DNA of 10,512 bases, taken from the NCBI GenBank assembly GCA_036939975.1, contig JALLPB010001260.1:1-10512 (forward strand), read 5' to 3'. Below the pieces are notes generated by a model. The model saw nothing but the letters and a program-made list of their open reading frames with translations. It had not been told where the DNA came from and searched no databases. A program made the translations under genes and the position numbers. Shown here piece after piece: positions 1,340 to 9,998 of the stretch (positions within the stretch are counted from its first letter, which is position 1; every line of letters starts with the position of its first letter). The DNA comes from Cyclostephanos tholiformis (lineage: Eukaryota > Bacillariophyta > Thalassiosirophyceae > Thalassiosirales > Thalassiosiraceae).

Positions 1340-4300
1340 ATGACGATGGACCAAATGAACATAAACGACTTGGATATCATCAGCGCCGCCGCCACGGAAG
1401 ATATCAAGGCTGTGGTGCCAAACGATGTCGAAATTGCATCAAACGATAGAAGGCAAAAGCGTTCAACAACGAGTCACCGCAGCAGCGATCAAAAGTCATT
1501 GAGAGGATCCCCCCGACAAGAGCAACTTTTTAAGACAGACCCAGATCATGATTTACTCCATACTTTTCAGCCCACGGTATCGCTTCATCGGACGCGACGA
1601 GAGTTGCTCCAACAAGATCATATAGCCTTCTCTTCCTCCATCGATCCCGCCGAATTTACTGACCAAACTTTGTTCGCGGGCGTTTCCTCGGCGGCTGCCT
1701 GCATTGTTTTTGAATTTCCCACAATGAAGCCGACACGCCTGAGTGGTGGTGGCGGATCGTCGTCGAAGGATCATCCGTCCGTGGAGTTGCTATCCTCGAA
1801 AAAAGTCAAACGACGAGGTCCCGTGTCGATGGAGGAGATGCAGAAATGGCGCGACGCAACGGGGGGAGCGTGCTACCGCTTCAAGCCGGTATACACCCAT
1901 CAATTTTTCACGGATGAGACAATCATAGGATATAGGCCAACCAACGATGCTATCGAGGAAGCTTATTCAGTGTCATCACGGGTACCCACCCCCCGCGAAA
2001 GTGACGGCGCTCATCAATCATTTTCGAGTCACGACAAGGCCGGTTACACGTTGTCGGTCCAGGTTAGGATTGCGCCCAGCTTCAAGAAGAGTTGCTTGAT
2101 ATTGGAAATCAAAAAGGTGGATGATATCGAGAACCGGCACATTCTTAACTTGGAATTGATGGCGTTGGTAAAAAAGTTGTCAGATCAGGAATTCGCGTGT
2201 TGCTTCCGTGATCCGGTCACGTCATATCTCGACGACGAGGAGGTGAAGGATTACCTAAGCGTCATTTCCGATCCAATAGATTTGAGTACCATGGAAAAAA
2301 GAATTAGAAAGGGGGACTGGTATGAGACAAAGCACATGCTGTATTCCGACATGATGAAGATGACCAATGATTGCAAGTTGTACAACGGACAGGGGACCGA
2401 GTATTATGATTGCTCGGTTGACCTCGAGAAGTACCTGGATAAAATCTTCCCCAAAAGCGTGACAGACCCATCCCCTAATGATATGCTCAAATCAGAATTA
2501 ATGACGCTTGTAAAAAAGGTGTCTAATCATGAATGCGCGTGGTGCTTCCGCGAGCCGGTCAATGTTGAGGAGGTGACAAATTACCTTGACTATATACCCG
2601 ATCCAATCGATTTGAGCACTATCGAGAAGAGAATCAGGAAGGGGAATTGGTACAAGAGCCTTTATATGCTGTATTCCGACATGTTGAAGATGGTGAATCA
2701 TTGCAAGTTTTTCAACGGGGAAGGAAACATGTTTTATGATTACGCGGTCAGTCTTGAGAAGTACATTGGTACCATCTTCCCCAAAAGCGTAACGAATGCC
2801 CCCCCCAGTGCCAATGATGCACTCAAATCAGAACTGATGAAATTGTGGAAAAATGTCTCTGATCAAGAATTCGCGTGGTGCTTTCGCGATCCGGTCAATG
2901 TCGAGGAAGTGACGGATTACCTAGACTTCATAACTGATCCAATAGATTTGAGCACCATAGAAAAGCGAATTTACAGGGGGGATTGGTATAAAAGCCAACA
3001 GATGTTATATTCCGACATGGTAAAGATGGCGAATAATTGCAAGCTGTACAATGGCGAAGGGAACGTGTATTATAATTACGCAGTCAGCCTTGAGATTTAT
3101 CTTGAAACCATCTTCCCCGAGAGCGTGACGCAACCTCCCCTGATGGGAAACGTTACGAACCTTACTGAAAACGTTCCCGCCGATGGCCTTGTCCCTGAAC
3201 ACCTGGAAAAGTCATTGAAATCATGCTATGTTGCTGGTTCTACTCCGACAACTGATGCACTATGCGATGCCCCAATTAGTGGAGGTGGTTATAGCTGTGA
3301 CGCTGACAATGAAAACGATGAAGGTGGAGACTATGAGCTGAAAGATCGTCAAGATGAGGGGAGAAAAAAGCGAGTGAGGGGCAGTTCACAGAAACATGCC
3401 TCTCTCATGTTATCAGAAAATATCACTGATCATTCTAGACGAGTCCGCCTCGAAGAATCTGCTTTGGATGTGGTTACTCCAGAAATTGGAGACAATATCG
3501 AACCAATACAATCTAATTCATCGAAAACCAATAGGGCAGAATTGTTAGGATTCGGTGGAGTAGGATTGGGACAGAGCCCAAGACGTATGCCTGTCGTGTC
3601 TGACAGTCCGTCAGTCCTTTCATCATCTGATGATTATAGCATTGAGTCCAGTAAGCCTCGCCAAGATTCTTTGACCAACAGTGTGCGCAACCCCGCTGAA
3701 TCATCAACAGAACTGAAAAAATTGAAAGTTGGAAGGATCATAGCTCAGATTTCAGGTGGCCTGCCAGAGGTCGCGGCTATTCTTCTGAAAGATGATAGCG
3801 TTGCTGGTGGAACTGGTGGTTTCAAAATAGTGCACTCGAGCGTGGGTTCATTATCAGACATTGAAAATAATTTTCTAGACCAGCCGATTGGAAAAATTGT
3901 TCGCGAGTATACACGAGAGAAAACAAACATGAGTCTCTGTGGGAGCGGTGGTATTCCTCATACGTCAGTCAAAAAAGGATCACAAAAAGTCGTCGGTCAT
4001 TTTGTTCTGACCCTAGCCGATGCGAGGACTGACAAGGAGGCACGAAAGTATCATGATGAAGTTGAGATGATTTCTCCATGGTTCATTGAAATAGCCTCTT
4101 GCGTTAGAGTTGGTAGGAACGGTGGGGTGGAGGCCACTGGAGCGTACTGGAAAGTCCTGTATCTATTTGAGAAACACAGCGATGGCGGTACAGCAAAATA
4201 TTCTCTTGTTGGTTACGTGACATTATTATACGATGAACGTCACATGTCGGTGTGCCAAGCAGTGTGCTTGCCCCCGTACCAAAGGAATGGACATGGGACA

Positions 4301-4891
4301 GAGATGTTAAAGACTGCATATGACATCTGTGGGAATAAAGAGATACTCGTTGAATCTCCAGCTCCTGCTTTTGGTGAGTATACCATCGTCAGATACATGA
4401 CAACTTATCCAGTTATGCTCAACCCCTCATTGCCATTTTTAGTTGCTTTGCGAAATAGGATAGACTACGCTCTCATGAGATCACTCATTGACAAGACTCA
4501 GATCATTCCACAAAGATTTACTGAAACATCGCAGATATTTAGCACGAAAGATACTCTGCTTCCTGATGAAGTTCTGTTGAAGGTTGGATCGACGTTGCAT
4601 ATTACAGCCCGCCAAGTTGAGATTGCATTCGATATTTGGAAGCTTGGTCAGCTAGAGATGTCTCTACGGAATACCGCCAACAGCACCATGTCTATCGCTA
4701 TGGTAAATCAGATCATCGCTTCAATGGAGGCATCCTTCAAACCACTGATGAAGAGGACTCTCCTTAAAATTGTGAGAGAAAAAGAAGACAAAGATCTGAA
4801 CTTTGACTCTATGGACAGAGAAACGCAAGCTCGTCATCTCGAGCTATGCTTTAACCGTGCAATAGTTCGTTACCGCGCTATTCTCAGATAG
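1340..4891 (+). CDS. HAT1-type histone acetyltransferase with three inserted bromodomains
   Basis: Intronless, 1183 residues. The start is ATG 1340 in context CACAATGA, with an in-frame TAA at 1328-1330. Order of parts: Ser/basic leader (1-175) with a possible nuclear signal KKVKRR (154-159); first part of the HAT1 N-terminal domain (about 181-262; Y-T-H-Q at 185-188, D-E-T-I-I-G-Y to 198); bromodomains at about 272-373, 386-483 and 498-595, each keeping the acetyl-lysine Asn (N349, N459, N571); a low-complexity linker with an acidic stretch and a second basic cluster RKKRVR (675-680); the rest of the HAT1 N-domain (about 791-910); a GNAT core with acetyl-CoA loop QRNGHG (981-986); and the helical HAT1 C-terminus ending near 1180. 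Glu917 (in W-F-I-E) and Glu1005 are the candidate catalytic acids; the usual Glu-Asp-Pro reads Glu-Ser-Pro at 1005-1007. HAT1 acetylates new histone H4 (family knowledge). Readers built into the enzyme would suggest chromatin-directed acetylation (inference). Ordinary HAT1 is about 420 residues and, as far as I know, lacks bromodomains. Confidence 0.88.
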   Translation: MTMDQMNINDLDIISAAATEDIKAVVPNDVEIASNDRRQKRSTTSHRSSDQKSLRGSPRQEQLFKTDPDHDLLHTFQPTVSLHRTRRELLQQDHIAFSSSIDPAEFTDQTLFAGVSSAAACIVFEFPTMKPTRLSGGGGSSSKDHPSVELLSSKKVKRRGPVSMEEMQKWRDATGGACYRFKPVYTHQFFTDETIIGYRPTNDAIEEAYSVSSRVPTPRESDGAHQSFSSHDKAGYTLSVQVRIAPSFKKSCLILEIKKVDDIENRHILNLELMALVKKLSDQEFACCFRDPVTSYLDDEEVKDYLSVISDPIDLSTMEKRIRKGDWYETKHMLYSDMMKMTNDCKLYNGQGTEYYDCSVDLEKYLDKIFPKSVTDPSPNDMLKSELMTLVKKVSNHECAWCFREPVNVEEVTNYLDYIPDPIDLSTIEKRIRKGNWYKSLYMLYSDMLKMVNHCKFFNGEGNMFYDYAVSLEKYIGTIFPKSVTNAPPSANDALKSELMKLWKNVSDQEFAWCFRDPVNVEEVTDYLDFITDPIDLSTIEKRIYRGDWYKSQQMLYSDMVKMANNCKLYNGEGNVYYNYAVSLEIYLETIFPESVTQPPLMGNVTNLTENVPADGLVPEHLEKSLKSCYVAGSTPTTDALCDAPISGGGYSCDADNENDEGGDYELKDRQDEGRKKRVRGSSQKHASLMLSENITDHSRRVRLEESALDVVTPEIGDNIEPIQSNSSKTNRAELLGFGGVGLGQSPRRMPVVSDSPSVLSSSDDYSIESSKPRQDSLTNSVRNPAESSTELKKLKVGRIIAQISGGLPEVAAILLKDDSVAGGTGGFKIVHSSVGSLSDIENNFLDQPIGKIVREYTREKTNMSLCGSGGIPHTSVKKGSQKVVGHFVLTLADARTDKEARKYHDEVEMISPWFIEIASCVRVGRNGGVEATGAYWKVLYLFEKHSDGGTAKYSLVGYVTLLYDERHMSVCQAVCLPPYQRNGHGTEMLKTAYDICGNKEILVESPAPAFGEYTIVRYMTTYPVMLNPSLPFLVALRNRIDYALMRSLIDKTQIIPQRFTETSQIFSTKDTLLPDEVLLKVGSTLHITARQVEIAFDIWKLGQLEMSLRNTANSTMSIAMVNQIIASMEASFKPLMKRTLLKIVREKEDKDLNFDSMDRETQARHLELCFNRAIVRYRAILR
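2153..3124 (+). repeat. In-gene triplication of a bromodomain unit
   Basis: Three consecutive bromodomain units begin at the same E-L-M motif at 2153, 2495 and 2831, so the repeat period is 342 then 336 nt (114 and 112 codons), and each ends in I-F-P-(K/E)-S. Units two and three are closest, sharing the run D-P-I-D-L-S-T-I-E-K-R-I and the P-V-N-V-E-E-V-T stretch; unit one has a slightly longer loop (Y-L-D-D-E-E). The usual W-P-F shelf reads C-C-F at 287-289, W-C-F at 401-403 and W-C-F at 513-515. The high similarity points to tandem duplication within this gene rather than capture of three different bromodomains. Confidence 0.88.
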
Positions 4892-5137
4892 TTATTATTC
4901 AACTAAACATTATATTGTGAATAAAGTAAAGTTACCCAATGAAACGACTGAAAGTGCGTGATGCACTACTGATACAAAGGCTGGACACCCCTTATAAGGA
5001 ATCATTCCATACACTTCCACCAATCGAGTTTCTCCTCTAAACCAAAATAAATTCAATAAATGATCGCGATCTGGATTAGTGATAATTCATAACCTTTAAC
5101 CCTCACGTCAATAGCGATAGAATCTAACTCTCTAAAT
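4892..5137. other. Convergent 3' flanks of the HAT1-like and cold-shock genes
   Basis: Short region between two tail-to-tail genes. AATAAA at 4920-4925, 29 bp after the upstream stop codon, is a candidate poly(A) signal for the plus-strand gene. No clear counterpart was seen for the minus-strand gene. No ORF worth reporting. Confidence 0.45.
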
Positions 5138-5607
5138 TTACCAATCCTCGAAGCCTTTGTTTGTGTTGGGGGGTGCTCCCTTTACATCGGCACCATCGGG
5201 ACCCGTGACATCCATTGCCTTTTTCTTTCCGTTCTTGTCAGTTTCGACTCTAAATTCTACGCGTTCATTTTCCGCAAGTGAACGAAATCCTTCGACCTTG
5301 ATGCTGGTCTGATGAACAAAAACGTCGCCCGACTCATCGTCCGGTACAATGAAACCATATCCCTTCGCGGTGTCAAACCTACGACACGAATTAGGGTACC
5401 GCGTCAGCAAAAGTGATTCAATGATCTAATAAATCGAACACAAAATGAGCCCCAATGCAATATAATGTCACTCCTGCCTACCTACCATTTGACAGTTCCA
5501 CTCTTGAGGTCAGCAAACAGAGGAGAAGCTTGGCGACCCACAAAGCCAGGTGCAAATCCGGCAGCAATAGCCAAAGTCGAAAGGAAGGTTAGTGCTGTTA
5601 ATTTCAT
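5138..5607 (-). CDS. Plastid-targeted cold-shock-domain protein, copy 1
   Basis: Spliced minus-strand gene: exon 1 5607-5486, intron 5485-5379, exon 2 5378-5138 (TAA 5140-5138), giving 120 residues. The splice restores K-W-F-D across a split TG|G codon. Residues 1-16 form a hydrophobic signal peptide, followed by A-G-F-A-P at 16-20 and a short basic/Ser transit segment. This is the two-part leader that sends diatom proteins through the ER into the plastid, with Phe18 at the expected cleavage site. The cold-shock domain spans about 36-103, with RNP1 K-G-Y-G-F-I at 46-51 and RNP2 V-F-V-H at 60-63, the aromatic residues that stack on single-stranded nucleic acid. A polar tail ends G-F-E-D-W. The likely role is RNA or ssDNA chaperone in the plastid (inference). 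An in-frame ATG at 5694 would add 29 residues before the signal peptide and is unlikely to be used. Confidence 0.87.
5379..5485 (-). other. Intron of cold-shock copy 1
   Basis: 107-nt GT-AG intron. The donor reads GTAGGT after AAATG and the acceptor reads TCGTAG before GTTTGAC. It splits the Trp codon of the K-W-F-D start of the cold-shock domain after its second base. The unspliced frame hits a stop at the donor itself (TGG TAG). Confidence 0.85.
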
Positions 5608-6292
5608 GGTGAGGTTATTAGGGGGAATTCGTGGTGGCTGGGTCTGCGTTTCTTCAGGGGTTGTGAGGTGGAGGCTGTCACCTTTTATGGACACGATGAG
5701 TGAGATGATTGCGGGGAGCGGAGGAAGTCTTTTTTATTTTTACATTTAGTTACAATAGTCGTACTTTTTTCATCGTATTGTGTAAGTATGTTACATGGTA
5801 TCGTACCAAACCACCGACCAACGTTGGAATAAATAATCACATTCGAATCCATCCTCAGAGGGAGGAAAAATAGAAAAAAAAAAATATCTGCTTTATGGGC
5901 TTAGCGGCTTAGCGAAGTGGGATTGTGATGCATCATAGAAGATAATACAGGAGGACCTGGACAGCACGTTGTGTGCAGCGCCAGGAGTATTGGTCCACCA
6001 TGAAATGAGTCACCATCGCAGCTGAGAATGATTGCGAGGACGAAGGGCGGGGTTGATATGGAGACGATCGTACGTTTTCCTGTCCATATCTGGGAGATCT
6101 CATAATTGTCGTGAGAAATTGTGCACTCTGGACGCTCTCAATACATGAGAAGGATTTGGCAGCAGCAGAAATGATCAGTAATTTATCGTTCATAATTATC
6201 CTCCATAAATACAAATAGATCTAGTTTGCATTAGGCATCAGGTTCAAAGATTTGGAGCAACTGCGCACATCTTGTCACGGCAGATACCGGAT
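5608..6292. other. Intergenic region between the two cold-shock genes
   Basis: Holds the upstream region of copy 1 and the 3' flank of copy 2. Visible structure: an A-rich run near 5870-5886, GCTTAGCG twice in tandem at about 5899-5914, and AT-rich DNA near 5750-5780. A 93-codon minus-strand frame (6214-5933) shows no domain or targeting signal and I do not call it a gene. Confidence 0.4.
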
Positions 6293-6718
6293 TTATACCG
6301 CCGATACGACATCCATTGCTTTCGTCTTCCCATTTTTGTCTGTTTCGACTCTGAATTCAACACGCTGATTTTCGTCAAGAGAACGGAATCCTTCGACCTT
6401 GATACTTGTCTGATGGACGAACACATCACCTGAGTCGTCGTCTGGCATGATGAACCCGTATCCTTTCGTCGAGTCGAACCTGTATTACGAAGAATTTCGA
6501 GGATTGTATTTGTGAGATGAGTGCGTTGGTGGAACGGGCGAGTAGCATCGCAATATAACGCATTCTGTGGCGCATCGCTGTCAAACCTACCATTTGACCG
6601 TACCAGTCTTGAGGTCCTCGGCCATGAAGAGAGGATTGGATTGGCGGCCCACTAAGCCCGGGGCGAAGCCGGCGGCAACTGCCAAAGTTGAAAGGAGAGT
6701 TAGTGATGCGATCTTCAT
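6293..6718 (-). CDS. Plastid-targeted cold-shock-domain protein, copy 2
   Basis: Paralogue of the neighbouring copy 1 in the same orientation. Exon 1 is 6718-6591, intron 6590-6480, exon 2 6479-6293 (TAA 6295-6293), 104 residues. The leader M-K-I-A-S-L-T-L-L-S is followed by A-G-F-A-P at 16-20 and V-G-R-Q, nearly as in copy 1, so the same plastid route is expected. Cold-shock domain from about 38, RNP1 K-G-Y-G-F-I at 48-53 and RNP2 V-F-V-H at 62-65. It stops four residues after A-M-D-V and lacks the roughly 18-residue polar tail of copy 1. The start at 6718 is chosen because it begins the signal peptide; the frame stays open much further upstream by chance and overlaps the divergent plus-strand gene. 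A shared intron position and close sequence identify a tandem duplication. Confidence 0.87.
6480..6590 (-). other. Intron of cold-shock copy 2
   Basis: 111-nt GT-AG intron at the same codon and phase as in copy 1. The donor side reads GTAGGTTTGACAG and the acceptor junction reads ACAG|GTTCGAC, so nearly the same nine bases (AGGTTTGAC / AGGTTCGAC) flank it at both ends. Parts of it resemble the copy 1 intron, such as TTATATTGC. Confidence 0.85.
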
Positions 6719-7106
6719 GGTTGATGGAAGTTTGTGTCTAAGATGACTGGTTGATGGAGGGAAGATGATATGAGAAGTAAGTGCGCGATGAAAGCGCTGG
6801 TGCGGGAGTTGCTTCGTGCCTCCGCCGTCCGCTTCGTCGCTTTTTCTACGGAAGGGAAGACTATGGGATGACGAAACAATGAGACATTTCAATTGTAAAA
6901 CCATTCTCGTACGATATACCACCCCGTACCGTACCCATGCTTGGTGAGAACTTCGGCTTGACAGCGACTTTCCCAAAACAGCATCATCTACTTTATTATC
7001 ATAAAAGCAAGGAGCAATGACGCGCTCCTCTCTCAGCCCTATCACACCGAGTCCATTTCGAGTTGATAGGACACATCGGCAGTGATTCGATTTTGACCAG
7101 GAGATA
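6719..7106. other. Divergent intergenic region
   Basis: 388 bp between the start codons of cold-shock copy 2 (-) and the HIRAN/oxygenase pseudogene (+), so it must hold both upstream regions, possibly as a bidirectional promoter (inference). I see no clear TATA box or repeated operator-like motif. A minus-strand frame is open across it, but it only continues the copy 2 exon upstream and shows no recognisable protein. Confidence 0.4.
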
Positions 7107-8712
7107 ATGTCCTGCTCGAAGAAACGCAAATCTATCCAGCAAGGGTTCTGTACCACCGAAGAAGCCACCGATGAGGTTAATGTGGTGGAGGGGACGACCG
7201 ACAAGGACCGAGTCATGTTTGGAGGATTTTCCATTGCAAAGAATGTCATGAACAAAATAAATTCAGCGGTGGATGTGGTAGGTGTTCAACAAGCCAATGC
7301 GAACAACATTATCAATGCCGTATCGGGAATGGAAGGAACCATGACATTCTCATCCAAGACAACAAACCCTGATCCTGCTGACTTACTTCGGAACCTTTTG
7401 ACTATTGATCTTATTTTCAGAGGCATCAAACACTGCAAAGAAAATATTTGATCTCTAGATGCTATTTCTCTACACAGAGAGCCTCAAAATGTCCATGGTA
7501 TGCCATTCGATTTTCATCGCAATTCTATGACATCCACTAAACCTCACTCATAAATGTTATCCACGAATAATAACTTTCTTGACCGTGAATGAAAAGATGC
7601 AAATGCAATCTGCGTGAAGAATGGCAAGAACAATACTGTTGGGTACATTTCCAAGGAGCAAGCATCCATTCTTACTGAGCCAACTGATGCAAATATCATA
7701 AGTTTGGACACGGTATATGGTATACTTGAAAGAACGACATGATTCGGCCCTTACTATTGCGGCCAAAATCAATCTAATCAACGAAGAGAAAATGGATCAG
7801 TTCAAGTTTCAGATCCTACCATAAATTTTCAGCATTCAACAGATTTCTGTCATGAAACTAAACTGCGACGTGATCAATAATATGGAAGTCCAGAGGCTTG
7901 TGAAAGGAATCGTAGCTAGAAACACAGAAACCGTATTGATGTGCCCATTTGATATCCTGCAGTCGCTTACTCTTCCTTGGACAAAAAAAATTAGATGAAA
8001 CCTCCACAGGTTGGCCTCCAAGCCAAAATATACTGGACAAGTTTGGGTACGGATCGGTGGATGACGAACAATGGTGGCAAGAAAATACAGGGCTAAGGCC
8101 TCTGTCAATGAGGAACATGACTGGTGCACTTGATATGCTGCCGGGAATTCCCATTACATCTCACCAGAAGACACGAGCAAGTGATGCACTAGATGATTCA
8201 GTCCACGGTGTGACAAATGTATGGAGCAATGCAACTGTTCAAGAAATTCGCGATCTCATGCATTCTCCCAACTTTTTGTGCTACCATAGTTCAGGTGAGT
8301 CTTCAGACTGCTATTTCTATGATTCTAGTTTCCGATTGTTAGTTTCACCTGCCATTCGATTAGATGCTTTCATTAAGACTTATGGAGACCCAATGTGCTG
8401 GGGCAGAAAGAAGGGAAACTAAAGCTCATAAGAGGTGCACCGCATATTCCTCTCACTGAAAAAGTTTCTCGGGCTCTCAACATCGTGTATGAACTTGTCT
8501 ACTTGACACAGCTGCCGAAACCCAGCTTCAACACGCTGATATTTGGGTTGAATTTAAGAGGGTCGGGCTTTCATTATCATCAAGATACAACTACTTCCTT
8601 GAAGGCAAAGAATGGTGAGTCTGGAGTAATTACCTGGTTTGTTTGTTGTCCACACAGTTCAACTATAATTTTGTTCCATCATCTTTTGCACCAGCCGCTC
8701 TAGTTAAATACC

Positions 8713-9400: not shown

Positions 9401-9635
9401 ATTTGATTGTTGTATTTCCGCTGCCACCTCTGTTGTCATTGTCCTCATCTTGTTGCCTGCACCACCGTTATGTGCCAACATGTCACAATTTACGTGAGCT
9501 GACACAACACCGACACGACGTCCGGCAAGCCAACATGGTGCAATGTTGACGACATGGTCTGTGTCGTGTCGGCAACATGGTGCCAACATGTCGGCATGTC
9601 TGTTGTTTTGGGGGGAAAAAATCTCAGACACAATG

Positions 9636-9653
9636 CTGACATTACCAGCCAAG
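9636..9653 (-). repeat. Right terminal inverted repeat
   Basis: Reverse complement of 8721-8738 without mismatch. The last three bases are AAG, directly abutting the right target duplication. Confidence 0.92.
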
Positions 9654-9661
9654 AACCTGTC
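9654..9661. repeat. Right target-site duplication
   Basis: AACCTGTC, identical to 8713-8720. The oxygenase frame resumes here as P-V-V-T-T-V-Y-Y-E. Confidence 0.87.
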
Positions 9662-9998
9662 GTCACCACAGTGTATTATGAAAAGCCTGACAAAGACAAT
9701 GGGAAGGAACTCATTCTGTGGAAACTGCTTCTAAGTTTCAATCCGCAAAATAATGATTCTTTATACATGGCAGCACGAGCGATTCAAATGACACATGGCA
9801 TGATTCATGTGCAGCAAGCTGGGCTGCAAAACTCTACCCAACATGGAATCTTTCACACCCCAATATCTGAGAATGGTAGTACTTAACCCGTTTCACGTGC
9901 ACAAAGAGGACATCAGGTTGCCATCACTGCATCCAGATGCTGAAGAATTGCTGATGCCATATTTGAATAAAGGTCATTACTGCTTTTTTGGAGTCTAA

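Follow-up and report, generated by a model that had tools for sequence, protein, structure and literature searches.

The contig JALLPB010001260.1 of the diatom Cyclostephanos tholiformis, 10,512 nucleotides long and analysed whole (hereafter the window), belongs to an assembly of 25 Mb in 1566 contigs. On its forward strand an open reading frame (ORF) at 1340-4891 encodes a HAT1-type GNAT protein in two blocks (residues ~113-262 and 794-1183), which are split by three bromodomains and a linker. Judged by its sequence, the gene is a diverged paralog of HAT1 (HAT1L) and not canonical HAT1, and its bromodomains probably came from a GCN5-type source. The features of the gene are as follows.

1340-4891, forward strand: whole open frame, 1183 codons plus stop, one intron read through; predicted spliced protein of 1160 residues
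1676-2125, forward strand: HAT1 block 1 (residues ~113-262), with the first strand, the YTHQ-F-DE-GY segment and the strand pair up to LILEIKK; placed by Hat1_N positions 25-47, by alignments with relatives and with the second HAT1 of this genome (L002), and by the fold of the relative P0021
2144-2461, forward strand: bromodomain 1 (residues 269-374), with Asn349 and Tyr305; a 4-residue insertion relative to bromodomains 2 and 3, and ACCF versus AWCF
2483-2791, forward strand: bromodomain 2 (residues 382-484), with Asn459 and Tyr415
2819-3127, forward strand: bromodomain 3 (residues 494-596), with Asn571 and Tyr527
3128-3718, forward strand: linker (residues 597-793), of low model confidence, with the basic patch GRKKRVR, which resembles a nuclear localization signal
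3719-4373, forward strand: HAT1 block 2, exon 1 (residues ~794-1011 plus the first base of codon 1012), the end of the N-domain and the GNAT core, with Glu917, QRNGHG, Glu1005 and Ser1006
4374-4442, forward strand: putative intron, 69 nucleotides, in frame, stop-free, GTGAGT...TTTTTAG
4443-4891, forward strand: HAT1 block 2, exon 2, the helical C-terminal part

A HAT1-Type Protein in Two Blocks

The longest frame in 200 mononucleotide shuffles had 176 codons, against 1183 here. A sequence-only reading of this DNA had proposed HAT1-type sequence in two blocks, three bromodomains between them, and an insertion point just past the early strands of the HAT1 N-domain, and in all of this it was right. 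At the level of Pfam domains, Hat1_N matched the ORF in two collinear stretches (E 7.2e-7; 30 bits against a cut-off of 22.9), and Bromodomain matched it in three (E 1.6e-52). When the blocks were scanned apart, the 5′ one corresponded to Hat1_N positions 25-47 (18.5 bits) and the 3′ one to positions 114-157 of 157 (14.6 bits), again in collinear order but neither reaching the cut-off by itself; a GNAT match at residues 952-1000 lay slightly under its cut-off (18.7 vs 20.7 bits). The family profile, compared with all PDB sequences at E <= 0.001, found six distinct sequences, five of HAT1 (human and yeast included) and one of Nop58, and at this threshold no GCN5 catalytic domain was among the matches. 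Human HAT1 (2p0w) was matched in two collinear segments, chain residues 31-55 and 147-275, the first of which (6.8 bits) is not significant alone.

The insertion follows the strand pair that ends in ...LILEIK and precedes the helix LKVGRIIAQI, as placed by Pfam, the family alignment and the P0021 model. Because the AlphaFold model of the window protein was too weak for block 1, the bromodomain-less relative P0021 was folded instead; from residue 56 onwards, its model can be aligned to human HAT1. Since Gly114 of the window protein aligns with Gly56 of P0021, the first block starts near residue 113 and not at 181, where it had been placed before. There is no sign of two separate genes: the frame is single, and the bromodomain-less relatives are continuous across the site.

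A further correction to the sequence-only reading is that residues 1012-1034 are read from the intron, which contributes these 23 residues directly after ESPAPAF in the unspliced reading. In nine of the 12 other rows of the first alignment the sequence is continuous without them, and from this comparison we infer that 4374-4442 is spliced out. The other three rows (P0002, P0005 and P0011) read into the same intron place. At this place the predicted proteins of these three relatives are truncated or extended; the ORF caller translates the intron.

The HAT1L Family and Its Variable Loop

Two protein-database searches gave 22 HAT1-like family members, the window protein included. Five of them bear names, all from four species of Thalassiosirales: Discostella pseudostelligera (two proteins), Thalassiosira profunda, Cyclotella cryptica, and Cyclotella cf. 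meneghiniana. The same architecture was found in one further sequence, P0002, which represents 30 member sequences (1 contig listed, source ENA) and shares 78% identity with the query across 86% of its length. According to the precomputed Pfam column, the window protein and P0002 are the only members with bromodomains, and the 20 relatives lack them, as a direct scan also found for P0003, P0005, P0007, P0008, P0010, and P0012.

The family tree (689 columns, 23 rows) united the window protein and P0002 with support of 100/100, and their sister was a five-row group that includes Discostella (96/94); the branches of L002, P0025, and P0021 were flagged as long. Given this placement, the bromodomains appear either to have been gained once in the window/P0002 lineage or to have been gained earlier and then lost.

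The bromodomain-less members, among them those of Discostella, Cyclotella, and Thalassiosira profunda, resemble the window protein in the N-terminal extension, the HAT1 blocks, the insert site, and the linker motifs; the nuclear-localization-like pattern matches in 18 of the 22 members. Their inserts, however, carry no Pfam bromodomain and are 174-432 residues long, compared with 544 and 546 in the two bromodomain forms and 37 in L002 (all lengths as given by alignment A3, on which they depend). The inserts are rich in polar and charged residues: in the 20 relatives, 67-75% of the positions are D, E, K, R, S, T, P, G, N, or Q. In the two bromodomain forms the bromodomains occupy the front of the insert, and the rear (DYELKD...GRKKR and a SDSPS..SSDD stretch) resembles the insert of the relatives. 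In P0007-P0010, Cys/His repeats were seen by eye at the bromodomain site, and a pattern count found AT-hook-like RGRP motifs in P0008-P0010 as well. The sole Pfam match to the Cys/His repeats of P0008 was a weak one to CxC6 (E 0.032, 14.9 bits vs a cut-off of 27.5). The sequence-only reading is to be corrected here, as the recipient loop of these relatives is long even without any bromodomain. For this reason the loop seems to have been extended already when the bromodomains were gained, and other things seem to have been gained in it elsewhere.

The suggestion that a type B HAT1 had been converted was not supported in the form given. The same genome has a second, more canonical HAT1, L002, of 597 residues on contig C506, and in the window gene the catalytic Asp is replaced by Ser, for which we file it as a HAT1-like paralog; ordinary canonical HAT1 was rejected as its identity, the Glu-Asp copy being the one on C506. 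In a published table (PMC3145265, Table 2), HAT1 is counted once each for Phaeodactylum and Ectocarpus and twice for T. pseudonana, which fits an extra copy in this diatom order.

Source of the Bromodomains

Each bromodomain alone passed the Pfam cut-off of 21.7 bits (61.8, 68.6, and 70.3). Asn349, Asn459, and Asn571, and likewise Tyr305, Tyr415, and Tyr527, are intact and align with GCN5-type bromodomains; these two residues are the acetyl-lysine contacts in bromodomains. Identity among the three domains is 64-73%; it is 81-84% when each is compared with the P0002 domain at the same position, and 63-70% against the bromodomains of five GCN5-type proteins (P0013-P0017). Their dN/dS (the ratio of nonsynonymous to synonymous substitution rates) is low, ~0.14-0.20, with dS near saturation. 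A search with the bromodomain region gave 17 proteins: the window protein, P0002, eight GCN5-type proteins (51-65%), and seven bromodomain proteins (24-31%, some fungal). Our guess is that the eight GCN5-type proteins (P0013-P0017 and P0035-P0037) come from diatoms or their kin.

The genome itself has bromodomains at 22 places besides the three of the window; 13 of these were taken into the tree, and nine were left out (L026, L032, L035, L037, and five without a locus). In the bromodomain tree of 30 rows, the domains of the window protein and P0002 cluster with those of the eight GCN5-type proteins (99/99). Within this group they pair by position: bromodomain 1 with 1 (95/94), 2 with 2 (100/98), and 3 with 3 (92/82), while bromodomains 2 and 3 join each other (96/91). 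Yeast Gcn5 is much more distant and stands outside the GCN5-type group at an unresolved position. This grouping points to a GCN5-type protein as the probable source, and the pairing indicates that the array already had three units when the lineages of the window protein and P0002 diverged. Most simply, it would go back to a single capture that was then tripled.

Could the donor be another protein of the same genome? This was not supported, for none of the 13 own-genome bromodomains in the tree falls into the GCN5 group. Searched against the assembly, full-length P0013 matched only own-genome bromodomains and its catalytic segment matched nothing, in a search that had no positive control. Chaperonin genes lie on only 9 contigs of the assembly, where 11-12 would be usual. 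The assembly may thus well be incomplete, and the missing match need not mean that GCN5 is lost from the genome.

Catalytic Residues and Possible Function

In the window protein human Glu187 corresponds to Glu917 and Glu276 to Glu1005, and the acetyl-CoA loop reads QRNGHG. The loop had been recognized correctly in the sequence-only reading, but ESPAP, which it also cited, is not a canonical HAT1 motif: human HAT1, yeast HAT1, and L002 read E-D-P. The site is covered by 21 family members, all but P0029, whose sequence is too short. The Glu187 equivalent and the loop Q-x-x-G-H-G are present in all 21, and the Glu276 equivalent is kept in 18. The other three, P0020 with Gln and P0024 and P0026 with Val, are possible pseudoenzymes. 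L002 keeps Glu-Asp, and its loop is HRAGHG, with H in place of Q.

Acetyltransferase activity of the window protein is plausible from these residues. We see about an even chance that it works as a nuclear HAT1-like lysine acetyltransferase which three bromodomains tether to acetylated chromatin, so reinforcing acetylation. In such a scenario, bromodomain sequence from a GCN5-type gene would have been copied into the long N-domain loop that links the strand pair to the following helix, and there it would have multiplied into three units. Both HAT1 blocks would fold into one acetyltransferase with the array looped out, and the bromodomains would bind acetyl-lysine on histones or neighbouring proteins. 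Binding would hold the catalytic unit near already acetylated nucleosomes, and acetylation would be reinforced or spread in a feed-forward manner.

Several observations weigh against a chromatin-tethered enzyme of this kind. The equivalent of human Asp277 is Ser1006 in the window protein and is Asp in none of the 21 family members; together with the loss of the Glu276 equivalent in three of them, a loss that the family tolerates, this means that activity may be weak or dispensable. Bromodomain 1 has Cys where the other two have Trp, and bromodomain 2 has Phe for the Tyr before its Asn. The fork that joins bromodomain 1, bromodomains 2 and 3, and P0013-P0017 (94/95) has no internal resolution, so that one capture is indistinguishable from two. 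The formation of one fold by both blocks was probed on the bromodomain-less P0021. In the low-confidence model of the window protein only block 2 aligns to HAT1 and block 1 is not docked; its mean predicted local distance difference test (pLDDT) score is 48.5, ten-residue means within the bromodomains range from 30 to 69, and values at residues 599-814 are below 50. Even in the P0021 model pLDDT is below 50 at residues 131-171 of block 1, and Foldseek's own alignment of it with HAT1 comprises 237 columns only.

The main rival explanation, clearly less probable in our view than the tethered enzyme, is a reader-only scaffold: a HAT1L fold with lost or reduced catalysis would bind histones or a partner, and the bromodomains would do the work. 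The missing Asp277 equivalent throughout the family, the three members without Glu276, and the more canonical HAT1 in the same genome all suit such a scaffold. However, Glu1005, Glu917, and QRNGHG are intact in both the window protein and P0002, whose second blocks are 86% identical up to residue 1010, and, according to a review, only the Glu276 mutant of human HAT1 strongly lost activity (PMC10092946).

An autoregulated enzyme, in which the bromodomains bind the protein's own acetylated lysines or cover the active site and so act as a switch instead of targeting it, seems improbable. With both its ends anchored in the HAT1 fold, the array would be well placed for internal switching, but the models give no structural sign that it docks on the HAT1 part, and the insert is net acidic (K+R minus D+E = -27) and not especially lysine-rich. 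It is very improbable that the bromodomain block is an alternative exon that is spliced out, or a chimera joined only by assembly. Such an origin would agree with the third-position G+C content, which falls from ~0.6 (residues 101-500) to ~0.36 (residues 601-800), with the drop near residue ~600 (nucleotide ~3130), close to the end of bromodomain 3. Nevertheless, P0002 has the block at 82% identity, the dN/dS of the block is low, and donors of the pattern GT[AG]AG[TA], the one type searched, occur in the ORF only at 4374 and 4772, both outside the block. As P0002 repeats the architecture, an assembly chimera was rejected.

Comparison with Known Systems

With HAT1/KAT1 of type B (human 2p0w, yeast 1bob) the window protein shares Hat1_N and the GNAT core, the Glu187 and Glu276 equivalents, the Q-x-x-G-x-G loop, and probably, by the model of P0021, the overall fold. 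HAT1 enzymes acetylate free H4 at K5 and K12 and bind Hat2/RbAp46. In contrast to them the window protein has a ~530-residue insert with three bromodomains and Ser for Asp277, and its genome holds a separate, more canonical copy. Like GCN5/PCAF (KAT2), it joins a GNAT writer to bromodomain readers within a single polypeptide; yet its catalytic domain is HAT1-type, and its three bromodomains are nested, whereas GCN5/PCAF has one at the C-terminus. p300/CBP and TAF1 also carry an acetyltransferase and bromodomains on one chain, with different catalytic domains and not nested in a HAT1 fold. Writer-reader fusions usually place the reader beside the catalytic domain.

The domains and folds are therefore known ones, while the arrangement has no counterpart in the searched portions of the open-licence literature. 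These portions, which include parts of PMC5112689, PMC10227436, PMC10092946, PMC7339932, and PMC3145265, do not mention HAT1 with bromodomains, and absence there is no proof.

Other Features of the Window

Upstream of the gene, at 295-600, a 75-nucleotide unit occurs three times at a spacing of 115-116 nucleotides, the later copies being 79% and 60% identical to the first. Downstream, two tandem cold-shock-domain genes lie on the minus strand (~5136-5608 and 6296-6719), in which a signal-like segment at the N-terminus and an intron were recognized by eye; the repeats are 79% identical over 174 nucleotides, and the first, the one scanned, matched the cold-shock domain with E 6.6e-25. The segment 8718-9656 is a mobile-element-like repeat with 21-nucleotide terminal inverted repeats (95% complementary). 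Its first 181 nucleotides have matches of 73-90% at 12 other sites of the genome, some of them incomplete. Pfam gave nothing up to E 0.1 for the ORFs 7949-8419, 8395-8700, and 9554-9883.

Meaning for Histone Acetylation

In the window protein GCN5-like readers sit inside the fold of another, HAT1-like, acetyltransferase. If it is active, it would link the reading of acetylation to a HAT1-type enzyme, and reading and writing would be joined in an unusual way. The bromodomain-less relatives, built alike around the same site, offer a before-and-after comparison for the effect of readers on an acetyltransferase.

We also put forward, tentatively, a wider proposal: the HAT1L loop may be an evolving docking site whose interchangeable readers steer one acetyltransferase to chromatin. 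Its contents vary from a plain linker, through Cys/His repeats with or without AT-hook-like motifs, to three GCN5-type bromodomains, and with the latter the protein would be a feed-forward acetyltransferase on nucleosomes. HAT1-type enzymes are described as acting on histones before deposition (PMC7339932). If the protein of this lineage does act on nucleosomes in this way, the customary division of deposition-type HAT1 from chromatin-bound acetylases would be broken.

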